64,000 bases of DNA. It comes from Sinorhizobium terangae. GTDB taxonomy: Bacteria > Pseudomonadota > Alphaproteobacteria > Rhizobiales > Rhizobiaceae. The DNA lies in the NCBI RefSeq assembly GCF_029714365.1, contig NZ_CP121659.1, forward strand, positions 1,736,001-1,800,000. The letters run 5' to 3'. The notes under the pieces are model-generated. The model saw only the letters and a list, made by a program, of their open reading frames with translations. It was not told where the DNA came from and made no database searches. Of the stretch, positions 36,440 to 40,966 are shown piece after piece. The position numbers were made by a program, and so were the translations under genes. Positions within the stretch are counted from its first letter, which is position 1. Every line of letters starts with the position of its first letter.

Positions 36440-39400
36440 CTATTGGTTTCCGGTACGCAGCCGAGGAGCGGCCGCATTGCCGGACAGACTGGTCAGTTCA
36501 AAACGCGCCGAGTTGGAGCGCGGATTCCAGAGGCCGCGATCGATTGCCTCCAGGAAGCGTTCCGACATTTCGGCGAGCGCCGCCGGGTTCCTGTCGCGCA
36601 GGAAGTCGAGGACCTTTTCGTCGCTGATGAAGGCGCGGTAGGCGGCCTCGAAATGATGGTCGCGCACGGCCCCGCTGGTCGCGGCAAAGGCGAACATGTA
36701 GTCGACCGTCGCGGCAATCTCGAAGGCGCCCTTGTAACCATGGCGCATGACGCCATCGATCCATTTCGGGTTGACGACGCGGGCGCGCACGACGCGGCCG
36801 ATTTCCTCTTCCAGCGAGCGGATCACCGGCTTTTCCGGGCGCGAATGGTCGTTGTGATAGATCGCCGGGCGCTGGCCGCCGAGGTGCTCCACCGCAGCAC
36901 TCATGCCGCCCTCGAATTGGTAATAGTCGTCACTGTCGAGCAGGTCGTGTTCGCGATTGTCCTGATTCTGGACGACAGCCTCGATCGACCGCAGCCGTTC
37001 TTCGAAAATACCGCGCTCGGCCTTGCCGTCCTCGCCGGCGCCATAGGCATAGCCGCCCCAGGTGAGATAGGCATCAGCGAGATCGCTGCGCTTGTCCCAG
37101 CCCTTCTCGTCGATCAGCGCCTGCAGGCCGGCCCCGTAGGCACCCGGCTTGGCACCGAAGACGCGGTAGGAGGCACGCCGCGCCGCTTCCTTCGCTTCGA
37201 CACCCTTCTCCTCAAGCCGCTTCGTCTCGGCACGCATGCGCGCGGCGATCATGTTGTCGGCGTCGTCCTCTTCCAACGCCCCGACGGCGCGGATCGCCTT
37301 GTCGAACAAAGCGATTTGCTCCGGAAATGCGTCACGGAAGAAACCGGAAATGCGGAGCGTGACATCGACGCGCGGCCGCCCGAGCATCGCCAGCGGCACG
37401 ATCTCGTAGCCGGTCACGCGGCGCGAGGCCATGTCCCAGACCGGCTTGGCGCCGATCAACGCCAGCGCCTGGGCGATATCGTCGCCGCCGGTGCGCATGT
37501 TGGAGGTCCCCCATGCGGTGAGCCCGAAGGAGGACGGCCATTCGCCATGGTCCTGCAGATAGCGGCGGATGAGCAATTCGGCCGATTTCTTGCCGAGCTC
37601 ATAGGCCGCCGGCGTCGGCACGGCGCGGCTGTCGACGGAATAGAAATTGCGGCCGGTCGGCAGCACGTCCGGCCGCCCACGCGTCGGCGCACCGGACGGC
37701 CCGGGTGCCACGAAGCGGCCGTCGAGCCCGGTGAGCAGGCCTTTGATTTCCGCGTCGCCCGAGCCTTCGATCGAGGGCTTCAGTCGATCGTCGATCTCGT
37801 CAAGGACAGCGCGTGTCGCGGCCCAGTTCTCGGGGCAGGCGATCTCGCCGGAGACCAGCTTCGCCGCGAGGAGTTCGATACGCTCGACGGTATCGCCGGC
37901 GGTGCGCCAGGGTGCATCCGAGAGAGAAGCGAGAGGCGCGGGTACCGGGCCGGTCCAGGGTGCGGACATGACGCAGTCGAGCGGGTCGAAAGGTTGCGGC
38001 TGCTGAGGCGTACCCCCCTCTGCCCTGCCGGGCATCTCCCCCACAAGGGGGGAGATTGGCAGGTGGCGACTGCTCGGTTCCCCGGCGCCGCCGCCGATAC
38101 TCGGGTCGACGCTACCGCTAACAATTGCACCTTCTGCCGTCAGACCCGCCTGGCGTGGCCGGGCCATGAGACTTGCATCACGTCCTCGAGCCGGTGGGCC
38201 CGCCTCATGTTGGGGCGCCGTGGAAGCATGAGAGCTCTCCTCCCTGATCTCCCCCCTTGTGGGGGAGATGTCCGGCAGGACAGAGGGGGGTACTTGCGCC
38301 GACCCGCCTAGCCCCAAGTCCGACGCAATGGCCCGCTGCAAGCTCTGGTCGCCGCCCTCGCCCAAGCCACGCGGCACCCGCGCCAGTGCCACGGTGAGGT
38401 CGGTCAGCAAACGCCCTTCCGGCGCGACGCCGAAGATATGCAGCCCGTCGCGGATCTGCATCTCCTTCAGGTCGCAGAGATAGGCGTCGAGCTTTTCCAG
38501 CGCCTTGTCGTCACTGTCGGCCTTTTCGATCCCGGCATCATGATCGAGGCCGATGTCGCGGACGAGGTCGAGGATCTGCCGGCTCAGGAGCCTGAGCCGG
38601 CGCGGGTCGCCGCCCGCCGCCTCGTAATACTCGTCGACCAGCGCCTCCAGATCCTTGAGCGGCCCGTAGGATTCCGCCCGCGTCAAGGGCGGCGTCAGAT
38701 GGTCGATAATGACGGCGCTGGTGCGGCGCTTGGCCTGCGTGCCTTCGCCCGGATCGTTGACGATGAAGGGGTAAAGATGCGGTGTCGGGCCGAAGACCGC
38801 CTCGGGATAACAATTCTCCGAAAGTGCCAGCGCCTTGCCAGGCAGCCATTCGAGATTGCCATGCTTGCCCATGTGGATGATCGCGTCAGCTTTGAAGACC
38901 TGCCGCAGGAAAGCATAGAAGGCGAGATAGCCGTGCGGCGGAACGAGGTCCGGCGCGTGATAGGTTTCCTTTGGATCGATGTTGTAGCCGCGCGCAGGCT
39001 GGATGCCGACGAGGACCTCGCCGAAGCGCGCGAGCGGTAGCGCGAAGGCTCCGTCCAAGAAGAAGGGATCGGCTTCGGGATCGCCCCAGCGCGCCGTCAC
39101 CTCGTCCTGGATCTGCCGCGGAAGAGAGGCGAGGAAATCCTTATAACGATCGAGCGAAATGAACTCGCGGATTTCGCGGTCATGGCTCGCCGCATTGGTC
39201 GGACCGGCCATCAGGAAGCGCATAAGCGCGTCGCCGTCCTCGGGAAGGTCACCGATGGGATAGCCTTCCGCGGCCATCGCCTTCAGCACCTCGATGGTGC
39301 CGGCCGGCGTGTCGAGGCCAACGCCGTTGCCGAGGCGCCCATCGCGGTTGGGATAATTGGCCATGACGATGGCAACGCGGCGTGCCTCCGGCCTCGCCCG

Positions 39401-40777
39401 GCGCAGTCGCGCCCAGTTGGCAGCAAGCCGTGCGGCAAAGCGGACGCGGTCCAAGAGCGGTTCGTGCCCGACGATGTTGGCTTCTACCGCCGGATCGTAG
39501 ACGGACGCCGCCTTGAACGAGACGGCGCGGGAGAGAATGCGGCCGTCTACCTCCGGCAGCGCAACGTTCATGCCGAGATCACGCGCCATCAGCCCTTGCG
39601 GCGACGCCGCCCAGGCGGCGCGCGAGGAGCCGGAAAAGATCACCTGCAACACCGGCGCGCCGGTCGATTCGAGCACGGTCGGCTGACGGTCGGCACCGGG
39701 CGCGGAAACCGCAAAGCCGGTGGCGTTCATCACCACGTCCGGTGCGGCTTCAGCGAAGATCGCCTGCAGCGTACCGATCGAGACCCGATCCTTCAGGCTC
39801 GAAACGAAGACCGGGAGCGCCCGCATGCCTTCAGTCGCAAGCGCCCCGATCAAGGCTTCGACGGGTCTCGTTTCGCCGCTTTGGACGAGCGCGCGGTAGA
39901 AGCAGATGGCGACCGTGGGTTCGGCTTCCTTCTTCTCCTCCGAACTCTGCGCGGCATTACCCCCCTCTGTCCTGTCGGACATTTCCCCCACAAGGGGGGA
40001 GATCAGCGCGCCGCTACCGCTCGATTCCCAAGTTTCAGACCGTCGATTTGCATGATCGTCACGCACAGGCTTGCTCGCCGAGGCAGGCTTGGCCTCGAAC
40101 TCGGCAGAACCAGATGGGCGAAGCGTTGCACCCCCGTTCTCCCCCCTTGTGGGGGAGATGTCCGGCAGGACAGAGGGGGCTGTTCCCGGCAGACCCGCAA
40201 TCGCGCGCCATCGCTCAACGCCGATCACACCCTCGCTCGGCCACCAAATACCCGCCTTCAAGAGCGGCCGCGCCGGCTGCGGCTTCTCGCCTCCATCAAT
40301 CAGCGCGTCGGCATAGTCGAGGAAGAGCCCCGCATTGTCGGCGCCGCCCTCGGTGAAATAGGCCCAGAGGCGCTCGCGGTCATTGGCGGACACCGTAGAG
40401 AACGGATCGAGACCCGGATCCGGCTTGTCGTCGCCGGGGAGCACCGCGATCTGGAATTTATTCGCAATCGCCGCCGCATAGAGCGCCTCGAGCACATAAC
40501 GGAAATAGCTGGCGCCCCCGAGCGGGCGAACGACGATCAGCCTCGCATGCCGTGCCGTGCGCTCGACATAAGTGTCGACCGACATCGGGTGCATCAGGTT
40601 CATCAGACTGGCGATGCGCAGTGTCCTTGCCCCCGTCCGCCGCCCGTAGGCCGCGGCGATCGAGGCGAGTTCCGTGTCGGCGGCGGAGAGGAACAGGATG
40701 TCGGCCGGGCTTTGCCCGAGATCGATCGCCTCGTTGCCATCGGCGATCGTGCCTTTCTGGGCTAGGAGGAGATGCAT
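36440..40777 (-). CDS. cobN: Cobaltochelatase large subunit CobN with two repeat-encoded insertions
   Basis: 1445-residue subunit of the ATP-dependent cobalt chelatase (CobNST), which inserts Co2+ into hydrogenobyrinic acid diamide. Family blocks include HLLLAQKGTIADG, MHPMSVDTYVERTARHARL, VVMNATGFAVSAPGAD, KADAIIHMGKHGNLEWLPGK, PFIVNDPGEGTQAKRR, GTSNMRTGGDDIAQALALIG and QFEGGMSAAVEHLGG. GGAGGAG precedes ATG 40777. Two segments do not belong to CobN: about 75 residues from 40182 to 39957 and about 95 from 38294 to 38010. Both are bounded by palindromic repeats read as VLPDISPTRGE and ISPLVGEM. Removing them gives about 1275 residues, the length I recall for Pseudomonas denitrificans CobN. Confidence 0.96.
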   Translation of the reverse strand: MHLLLAQKGTIADGNEAIDLGQSPADILFLSAADTELASIAAAYGRRTGARTLRIASLMNLMHPMSVDTYVERTARHARLIVVRPLGGASYFRYVLEALYAAAIANKFQIAVLPGDDKPDPGLDPFSTVSANDRERLWAYFTEGGADNAGLFLDYADALIDGGEKPQPARPLLKAGIWWPSEGVIGVERWRAIAGLPGTAPSVLPDISPTRGENGGATLRPSGSAEFEAKPASASKPVRDDHANRRSETWESSGSGALISPLVGEMSDRTEGGNAAQSSEEKKEAEPTVAICFYRALVQSGETRPVEALIGALATEGMRALPVFVSSLKDRVSIGTLQAIFAEAAPDVVMNATGFAVSAPGADRQPTVLESTGAPVLQVIFSGSSRAAWAASPQGLMARDLGMNVALPEVDGRILSRAVSFKAASVYDPAVEANIVGHEPLLDRVRFAARLAANWARLRRARPEARRVAIVMANYPNRDGRLGNGVGLDTPAGTIEVLKAMAAEGYPIGDLPEDGDALMRFLMAGPTNAASHDREIREFISLDRYKDFLASLPRQIQDEVTARWGDPEADPFFLDGAFALPLARFGEVLVGIQPARGYNIDPKETYHAPDLVPPHGYLAFYAFLRQVFKADAIIHMGKHGNLEWLPGKALALSENCYPEAVFGPTPHLYPFIVNDPGEGTQAKRRTSAVIIDHLTPPLTRAESYGPLKDLEALVDEYYEAAGGDPRRLRLLSRQILDLVRDIGLDHDAGIEKADSDDKALEKLDAYLCDLKEMQIRDGLHIFGVAPEGRLLTDLTVALARVPRGLGEGGDQSLQRAIASDLGLGGSAQVPPSVLPDISPTRGEIREESSHASTAPQHEAGPPARGRDASLMARPRQAGLTAEGAIVSGSVDPSIGGGAGEPSSRHLPISPLVGEMPGRAEGGTPQQPQPFDPLDCVMSAPWTGPVPAPLASLSDAPWRTAGDTVERIELLAAKLVSGEIACPENWAATRAVLDEIDDRLKPSIEGSGDAEIKGLLTGLDGRFVAPGPSGAPTRGRPDVLPTGRNFYSVDSRAVPTPAAYELGKKSAELLIRRYLQDHGEWPSSFGLTAWGTSNMRTGGDDIAQALALIGAKPVWDMASRRVTGYEIVPLAMLGRPRVDVTLRISGFFRDAFPEQIALFDKAIRAVGALEEDDADNMIAARMRAETKRLEEKGVEAKEAARRASYRVFGAKPGAYGAGLQALIDEKGWDKRSDLADAYLTWGGYAYGAGEDGKAERGIFEERLRSIEAVVQNQDNREHDLLDSDDYYQFEGGMSAAVEHLGGQRPAIYHNDHSRPEKPVIRSLEEEIGRVVRARVVNPKWIDGVMRHGYKGAFEIAATVDYMFAFAATSGAVRDHHFEAAYRAFISDEKVLDFLRDRNPAALAEMSERFLEAIDRGLWNPRSNSARFELTSLSGNAAAPRLRTGNQ
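38010..38294. repeat. Palindromic repeat pair inserted in frame in cobN (downstream copy)
   Basis: Inverted copies of ~46 bases at 38011-38056 and 38247-38293 differ at about two positions (core CATCTCCCCCACAAGGGGGG). Each arm is itself a hairpin. They bracket about 190 bases, and the whole unit is a multiple of three, keeping cobN open. The encoded peptide is rich in Ser, Pro, Gly, Ala and Arg, as in a flexible linker. Both ends carry GTAC. Confidence 0.85.
39957..40182. repeat. Palindromic repeat pair inserted in frame in cobN (upstream copy)
   Basis: Inverted ~45-base copies at 39958-40003 and 40137-40182 of the same element as at 38010-38294, here with a ~135-base centre of unrelated sequence. 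It encodes about 75 residues, including SVLPDISPTRGE and ISPLVGEMSDRTEGG, that have no counterpart in the flanking CobN domains. Confidence 0.85.
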
Positions 40778-40806
40778 GGGATCTCCTCCAACGTCGCAAG
40801 GAAGCG

Positions 40807-40966
40807 CCCCTCCCCAACCCCTCCCCACAAGGGGGAGGGGCTAAGCGCCTGCGGCGCCCACCTGCCCGTATTCAGCGTTTGCGTCTGGCTGAACCGTCTA
40901 GGACGGACGCAAAGACGGTGGGACCGGCCAAGCCCCTCCCCCTTGTGGGGAGGGTTTGGGGAGGGG
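40807..40966. repeat. Palindromic repeat pair between cobW and cobN
   Basis: Inverted ~38-base arms at 40804-40842 and 40931-40968 (core CCCTCCCCACAAGGGGGAGGGG) with a partly symmetrical centre (GTTTGCGTC/GACGCAAAG). Same architecture as the cobN insertions but different arm sequence. It ends about 25 bases before the cobN ribosome binding site. Confidence 0.85.

Follow-up and report, generated by a model that had tools for sequence, protein, structure and literature searches.

The cobN gene of Sinorhizobium terangae carries two palindromic elements that are read in frame with its coding sequence, and the same two positions of CobN change repeatedly across many genera through repeats of several kinds. 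We consider it likely that these inserts are nonautonomous, MITE-like palindromes that are tolerated at disordered linkers, where they invert and from which they are lost. Near-neutral tolerance is the best-supported reading of what the sequence comparisons suggest about them.

Two palindromic elements lie in frame within cobN

The 64-kb stretch of S. terangae DNA analyzed here (the window) contains cobN, encoding the large subunit of cobaltochelatase, a vitamin B12 enzyme, on the minus strand (36440 to 40777). The stop-free reading frame extends from 36440 to 40828 and specifies 1,462 amino acids from a GTG or 1,445 amino acids, including the two inserts, from the ATG at 40777. The assignment follows from likeness in sequence to the CobN chains 9uk9 and 7c6o and from a single Pfam match (PF02514; 1287.7 bits) that covers protein residues 155 to 1439 and profile positions 1 to 1088 of 1090, spanning both inserts. 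The cobN of S. terangae USDA4894 matched the cobN query at 100% over the length of the query.

Element 1 (39957 to 40182, minus strand; 226 bp, ~75 amino acids) occupies linker site 1, ahead of the conserved VAICFYR segment. In the coding sense it consists of a left (F) arm read APSVLPDISPTRGE (40138 to 40182), a 135-nt spacer (40003 to 40137), and a right (R) arm read ISPLVGEMSDRTEGG (39957 to 40002); its inverted arms are 88% complementary over 51 nt (39952 to 40002 and 40138 to 40188). Element 2 (38010 to 38294, minus strand; 285 bp, ~95 amino acids) occupies linker site 2, between LQRAIA.DLGLG and FDPLDC. Its left (F) arm, read PPSVLPDISPTRGE (38247 to 38293), and its right (R) arm, read ISPLVGEMPGRAEGG (38010 to 38056), are 96% complementary over 47 nt and enclose a 190-nt spacer (38057 to 38246). 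A preliminary description of this DNA had proposed two in-frame palindromic inserts in cobN, and both the open frame and the inverted arms found at each position bear it out. The peptides VLPDISPTRGE and ISPLVGEM, which it reported at both sites, are seen in the translation, and its estimate of ~1,275 residues for CobN without the inserts agrees with subtraction (1,445 − 75 − 95 = 1,275). Pseudomonas denitrificans CobN has 1,275 residues.

A related palindrome, also with two arms but of type B (arms of 36 nt, 97% complementary), lies just upstream of cobN (40807 to 40966, strandless), and this kind also sits in cobN site 2 of several Rhizobium species. An Rfam search of the 64-kb window returned nothing above threshold.

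Inverted repeats can mislead short-read assembly, and inserts of this kind could in principle reflect an assembly or annotation artifact or mark a pseudogene. We find this scarcely credible: cobN formed an uninterrupted frame in 33 of 33 Sinorhizobium genomes (1,265 to 1,474 amino acids, with and without inserts), the complete record of Rhizobium johnstonii 3841 (L076) includes inserts, and those of the S. terangae genome are identical in another genome of the species (L112 and L111).

The arm repeat is dispersed in the genome and enters other genes

The arm core matched four times in the window, compared to 0.00 matches expected in shuffled sequence. A genome-wide search for the arm sequence, suggested in the preliminary description, gave 40 matches in the 6.63-Mb S. 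terangae genome (the four in the window included) when up to 3 mismatches were allowed, and a reversed control pattern gave none. The two copies in cobN and, in ftsY, two arm pairs plus one half are genic; most of the others in this genome lie between genes or at the ends of open reading frames. Among the other arm pairs of this genome, 8 of 17 were in phase and only 4 of 17 were both in phase and open, and we rejected the idea that the elements are purpose-built coding units.

TA is present at both edges of element 2 and at the right edge of element 1 and is absent at the left edge of element 1. Genome-wide, the arm edges vary (TA, CA, or other). A typical outer edge of an arm is TACCCCCC or CACCCCCC, and edges are mostly ACCCCCCTCTG-like, with no GTAG or CGTC tag at the stem base as judged by eye. 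One CobN locus (L126) has a single TA where another (L031) has TA on both sides of its insert; the flank lengths differ by 5 nt, unlike a simple duplication. A TA target duplication at the element ends is therefore suggested only.

Two further conserved genes carry the arm in frame. The variable N-terminal region of FtsY contains two to five in-frame A-type arms (the kind in the window) in 30 of 30 Sinorhizobium loci (L197 to L226; L154:2877-4760 in S. terangae), and these precede the SRP54 domains, as checked in the S. terangae genome. In four genomes (L227 to L230), the C-terminal tail of UvrB contains one right arm (ISPPVGEMSGRTEGG-like), which lies beyond the UVR motif in the two genomes on which Pfam was run. 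Separately, a PBP1C-like reading frame in several Sinorhizobium genomes (L161:2939-5377, L231, L232, and L245) has an element before its transglycosylase domain, and its true start may be downstream. We make no claim for the inserts in PBP1C-like, FGE-sulfatase-like, and other reading frames, because either the element comes ahead of the first domain or the search yielded no domain at all.

CobN inserts are concentrated at two sites

We aligned 110 CobN loci, comprising 80 from named genomes (the best 80 of 539 relatives) and 30 from 33 Sinorhizobium genomes, three of which (G014, G015, and G023) yielded no CobN locus. Because the query itself contained inserts, the set of 80 favors insert-bearing genes. 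Positions refer to L131, a Sinorhizobium CobN without inserts. Each of the 260 insertions of at least 12 residues fell at reference positions 178 to 207 (102 insertions) or 734 to 748 (158 insertions), and 104 of the 110 proteins had at least one. After removal of eight duplicates, segments of at least 40 residues were counted at site 1 in 57 and at site 2 in 85 of 102 proteins; the aligner clipped some of the site borders (e.g., L053 and L056 at site 1; L061, L075, and L093 at site 2). An inverted-repeat score above 13 was obtained for 120 of 142 long inserts, compared to none of 3,860 length-matched control segments from the same genes (maximum, 13).

Both sites appear to be linkers, judging from sequence and composition. 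In the 9uk9 CobN sequence (1,263 amino acids), only 10 residues (187 to 196) at site 1 and 1 residue (745) at site 2 lie between aligned parts, as expected from the preliminary description, which had placed the inserts at linkers. The alignment of homologs that it recommended upheld this placement, but the inserts are not a double insertion specific to one species, since the same two sites change repeatedly across many genera. The description had further reasoned that its reading would fail if close homologs outside the rhizobia contained the same segments or if the segments fell in the catalytic core. Such homologs do, taken literally, exist in Oceaniradius (L081), Phyllobacterium (L042 and L051), Ciceribacter, and further genera, and they extend the phenomenon instead; the inserts lie outside the conserved core of cobN. 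Two irregularities were seen among the loci. In L060, L061, and L106, the tblastn match to CobN starts ~1.8 kb upstream of the cobN reading frame, and in L096 (Rhizobium sp. CCGE 510) the frame is open only from inside the site 1 insert, where a frameshift or sequencing error may exist.

A sample of 71 genomes from 70 genera of the family, 61 of them with a PF02514 match, gave a fairer picture than the 80 loci. A CobN-type match was present in 39 genomes (38 with one match of at least 1,180 bits and one, G327, with two adjacent matches). Twenty of these were examined, namely, the 14 with the longest spans besides S. terangae and G025, and 6 with short spans. Element-like inserts occupied site 1, site 2, or both in 12 of the 20, of which 11 were recognized by an inverted-repeat score above 13 and one (L259) by motif only. 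With the S. terangae genome and G025 (L119, the same as L034) added, 14 of the 39 CobN-type genomes carry inserts; in the remaining 17 genomes the match spans reach up to 3,303 bp, like those of insert-free genes. Outside both site ranges, the 20 proteins had two insertions of at least 12 residues, one of 25 residues at reference position 447 (L247) and one of 35 residues at position 177, at the edge of site 1 (L255), and neither was palindromic (inverted-repeat score of 7 each).

At the level of the order, 30 loci less S. terangae itself and two that were misread as other reading frames left 27 usable loci, one of which (L175) belongs to the same family. In these 27, which are the best-scoring loci of their search and may underrepresent inserts, neither site exceeded 30 residues or an inverted-repeat score of 7. 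One of the 27, a CobN from another family of the order (L189), has a 64-residue palindromic insert (score of 26) at reference position 798, ~50 residues past site 2, so the two sites are not the sole tolerant positions in CobN.

Several repeat kinds replace one another at the two sites

The arms of the inserts were classified as type A (the kind in the window), B, C, or D, together with A/B and A/D hybrids; long segments that fitted none of the arm patterns numbered 8 at site 1 and 4 at site 2. By blastn clustering, 144 of 147 inserts joined one cluster via shared cores, and since nearly all are linked in this way, the kinds are better seen as mosaic variants than as unrelated families. Types A, B, C, and D are dispersed repeats in their own genomes. 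Type B gave 19 to 69 own-genome matches (5 genomes), type C 38 to 66 (3 genomes), and type D 32 to 116 (3 genomes), with arms and strands counted separately, so that actual copy numbers are lower.

A tree of the CobN core with 97 rows required at least 34 changes of insert type at site 1 and 32 at site 2, and at least 23 and 10 changes, respectively, between presence and absence. This tree is a quick, unrooted one from which five partial loci were dropped and in which 32 of 94 inner branches are open, and the direction of change was not inferred from it. Remnants in which the outer arms are fused (L130, L140, and L135), together with near-empty sites (L125, L126, and L131), show loss or an empty state, and two genes without either insert (L131 and L133) encode an otherwise intact CobN.

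The segments might instead be old CobN domains that were repeatedly lost in other lineages. Many Rhizobiaceae carry segments at both sites, and gain cannot be told from loss on an unrooted tree; nevertheless, the identity of the segments as dispersed repeats of several kinds, and the short, nonpalindromic sites of the 27 order-level proteins, make such an origin very improbable.

Inserts evolve under little protein-level constraint

We estimated dN/dS for 93 pairs hand-picked within six groups; one pair gave no ratio. The insert ratio lay between 0.4 and 1.2 in 85 of 92 pairs (extremes, 0.17 and 1.43), compared to at most 0.17 in the flank (150 codons ahead of the insert). The inserts thus evolve under little constraint at the protein level. 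They are also distinct in composition: the fraction of disorder-promoting residues was 0.68 in 142 inserts versus 0.54 in the core, and that of aromatic residues was 0.017 versus 0.079.

In some pairs dS was far lower in the insert than in the flank (0 versus 0.36 for L060/L109; 0.057 versus 0.385 for L114/L032), as expected if the inserts are younger than, or were exchanged after, the species split. Spacer identity was below 0.55 in 43 and at least 0.8 in 16 of 107 same-site pairs with close flanks; among same-site pairs with distant flanks, it reached at least 0.85 in only 2 of 1,344. Replacement is therefore common and wide sharing rare. Within one gene, the site 1 and site 2 spacers are often alike (identity above 0.6 in six genes), so copying between sites occurs. 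The arms remain similar while the spacers diverge.

Right arms are read in a nearly uniform phase

All 109 recognized type A right arms were read in one phase (102 CobN proteins of the main sample), and the right arms in FtsY and UvrB share it. Type A left arms in CobN were read in two phases (81 and 18 arms). Measured at exact edges, left edges fell in one phase in 93 cases and in another in 4, and right edges were split 104 to 2. Arm stops do not explain this uniformity, because none of the six frames of the consensus arm contains a stop. The preliminary description had proposed that the frame of insertion is constrained. We first accepted a strict constraint and then weakened it: the phase is uniform for the recognized right arms of the 102 CobN proteins, but other frames are used in four proteins, so the constraint is not absolute. 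Of these, L249 reads the R arm as LPPCGGDARQGRGG, L248 reads SPPLWWRC, L258 reads a B arm in another frame, and L081 reads SPPMWGRC, which the pattern missed, so that it stands outside the 109. A choice of frame that avoids Cys or Trp was dropped as an explanation, given that the B arm is read with Trp and that inserts and core are alike in their scarcity of Cys. The uniform phase may stem from descent, from exchange between copies, or from mild selection.

The right-arm phase that FtsY and UvrB share with the two CobN sites would also fit domesticated inserts, whose mRNA hairpin or peptide tunes the translation, mRNA processing, or folding of cobN. The predicted RNA fold of element 2 is far more stable than that of shuffled sequence (−189.7 kcal/mol, whereas 200 shuffles averaged −134.8; z = −9.5), and the conservation of arms around diverging spacers points in the same direction. 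However, exchange with other copies in the genome should likewise keep the arms alike, repeat kinds that are unrelated substitute for each other, as do orientations, the insert dN/dS is mostly 0.4 to 1.2, and close relatives lacking one or both inserts (both in L131 and L133) keep an intact CobN. We therefore judge domestication to be quite unlikely and retain near-neutral tolerance, with the reservation that a right-arm phase more regular than predicted in CobN, FtsY, and UvrB speaks against a purely neutral view.

Spacers are found in either orientation without loss of the reading frame

In R. johnstonii 3841 (L076), the site 1 spacer matches the site 2 spacer of the same gene at 80% when inverted and at 56% when direct, and it matches the site 1 spacer of R. 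laguerreae (L049) at 86% inverted and 52% direct. Among 84 type A spacers, 50 pairs were clearly more similar when inverted and 107 pairs had a direct identity of at least 0.68, compared to at most 0.60 for 300 shuffled pairs. Signed clustering placed 62 of the 84 in 13 families without conflict, leaving 22 outside families, and parsimony called for at least six changes of orientation at site 1 and at least three at site 2, in five families. Both spacer orientations are therefore represented, and the frame is preserved in each.

In the five families that flip within a site, both arms are in equal phase, and because both arms are read in the same phase, the arm peptides are unchanged by inversion. 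Family 1 (n = 10), the cobN family whose arms are in unequal phases, showed no flip, and neither did six equal-phase families (n = 2 to 5). In L051, the site 1 spacer is inverted relative to the site 2 spacer of the same gene despite unequal arm phases. The inverted spacer frame was open in 59 of 72 inserts versus 52.5 expected (z = 2.1 if independent), a slight excess that makes a weak case for selection keeping that frame open.

Opposite orientations could also have arisen by separate insertions or by copying across sites rather than by inversion in place. The frequent likeness of the two spacers within a gene, noted above for six genes, suits this account, as does the fact that most of the 50 inverted pairs come from one spacer family in the R. 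leguminosarum group, and the left flanks differ in some rows of opposite orientation (L076 versus L049). On the other hand, both junctions agree, at the same base and with similar flanks, in spacers of opposite orientation at site 1 (L073/L075) and at site 2 (L038/L044), and the left junction and flank agree in two further such pairs at site 1 (L044/L049 and L038/L040). In FtsY, where the arm cores are in unequal phases, 43 spacers gave 98 direct and no inverted pairs. Separate insertion or copying is thus a serious possibility, but inversion in place appears to be the likelier course.

A stronger version of inversion in place would make the inserts living invertible cassettes. Equal-phase arms would let the spacer flip harmlessly, giving each insert two alternative linkers, with populations holding both; with spacers also swapped with other copies, the two linkers would form a standing site of protein diversification. 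We regard this version as rather doubtful.

A proposed mechanism and its relation to known repeats

In the reading that we prefer, tolerance of MITE-like palindromes, the starting point would be an element with two ~46-bp inverted arms around a spacer, of a kind dispersed mostly between rhizobial genes. Insertions elsewhere in cobN would mostly be purged by selection, whereas both linkers may tolerate any in-frame disordered segment that is free of stops. The inverted arms could then allow the spacer to invert in place or to be replaced via recombination with other copies, and with equal-phase arms an inversion would alter the spacer peptide alone and keep the reading of the arms. Loss would result from slippage across the hairpin, a deletion after which the outer arms are fused. 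Several observations weigh against this reading: spacers are rarely shared between distant species, a TA target duplication is suggested only, the inverted spacer frame is open in slight excess, L189 has its palindromic insert at a third position, and the site 1 spacer of L051 is inverted despite unequal arm phases.

Rickettsia palindromic elements (RPE; Ogata 2000) are described as dispersed palindromes of ~150 bp that are read in frame inside conserved protein genes (PMC10969869, PMC2229807). The preliminary description had called the cobN inserts a rhizobial counterpart of these, and the in-frame copies in cobN, ftsY, and uvrB (a single arm only in uvrB) support the comparison at the level of description. 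The cobN elements differ from RPE in that they occur in free-living Rhizobiaceae, have ~46-bp arms around a variable spacer, and lie mostly between genes in S. terangae; moreover, the same two linkers of one gene are reused by several repeat kinds, in both orientations per site.

Intragenic GTAG/CGTC REPs have been reported inside open reading frames, where flexible linkers were suggested to be permissive; two Xanthomonas species have different REPs at about the same recB site, and Rickettsia conorii uvrB is interrupted by REPs (PMC3733652). These REPs are 20 to 40 bp long with a GTAG or CGTC tag at one end, whereas the cobN elements have two large arms and a spacer and, with edges judged by eye, fall outside that definition. 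Rhizobium-specific intergenic mosaic elements (RIME; Osteras 1995) are described as rhizobial, repeated, intergenic, and mosaic (PMC2573895, PMC3233446). Judged by that description, elements of the cobN type resemble them in being rhizobial, mosaic (the A/B and A/D hybrids), and mostly intergenic in S. terangae, but the copies read as protein in cobN, ftsY, and uvrB depart from a strictly intergenic definition. Bacterial MITEs with TA ends, such as Correia and ERIC, are described as having terminal inverted repeats and many copies, some of them fused in frame (PMC2229807). The elements studied here likewise have terminal inverted repeats, many copies, no coding capacity of their own, and TA at many edges; the probable exchange and inversion of spacers between the arms set them apart from the Correia and ERIC descriptions, in which the passages concerned make no mention of either (PMC2229807). 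Among the matches listed in a search of the open-licence literature, there was no paper on in-frame palindromes in cobN or in rhizobial proteins, which is weak evidence of novelty because open-licence papers alone were covered. In-frame palindromes are already known from Rickettsia and others; the shared hotspot with inversion appears to be a new variation on the theme.

The cobN inserts give a clear example from nature of a conserved enzyme taking up mobile DNA. Our data indicate that dozens of species, spread over a broad set of free-living bacteria, have absorbed palindromic mobile DNA in frame at one and the same pair of CobN linkers. These two linkers amount to a natural experiment in insertion tolerance that allows a comparison of insertion, inversion, exchange, decay, and loss, and they offer a direct test of how mobile DNA may become a protein linker and of whether intragenic inverted repeats may flip coding sequence harmlessly.
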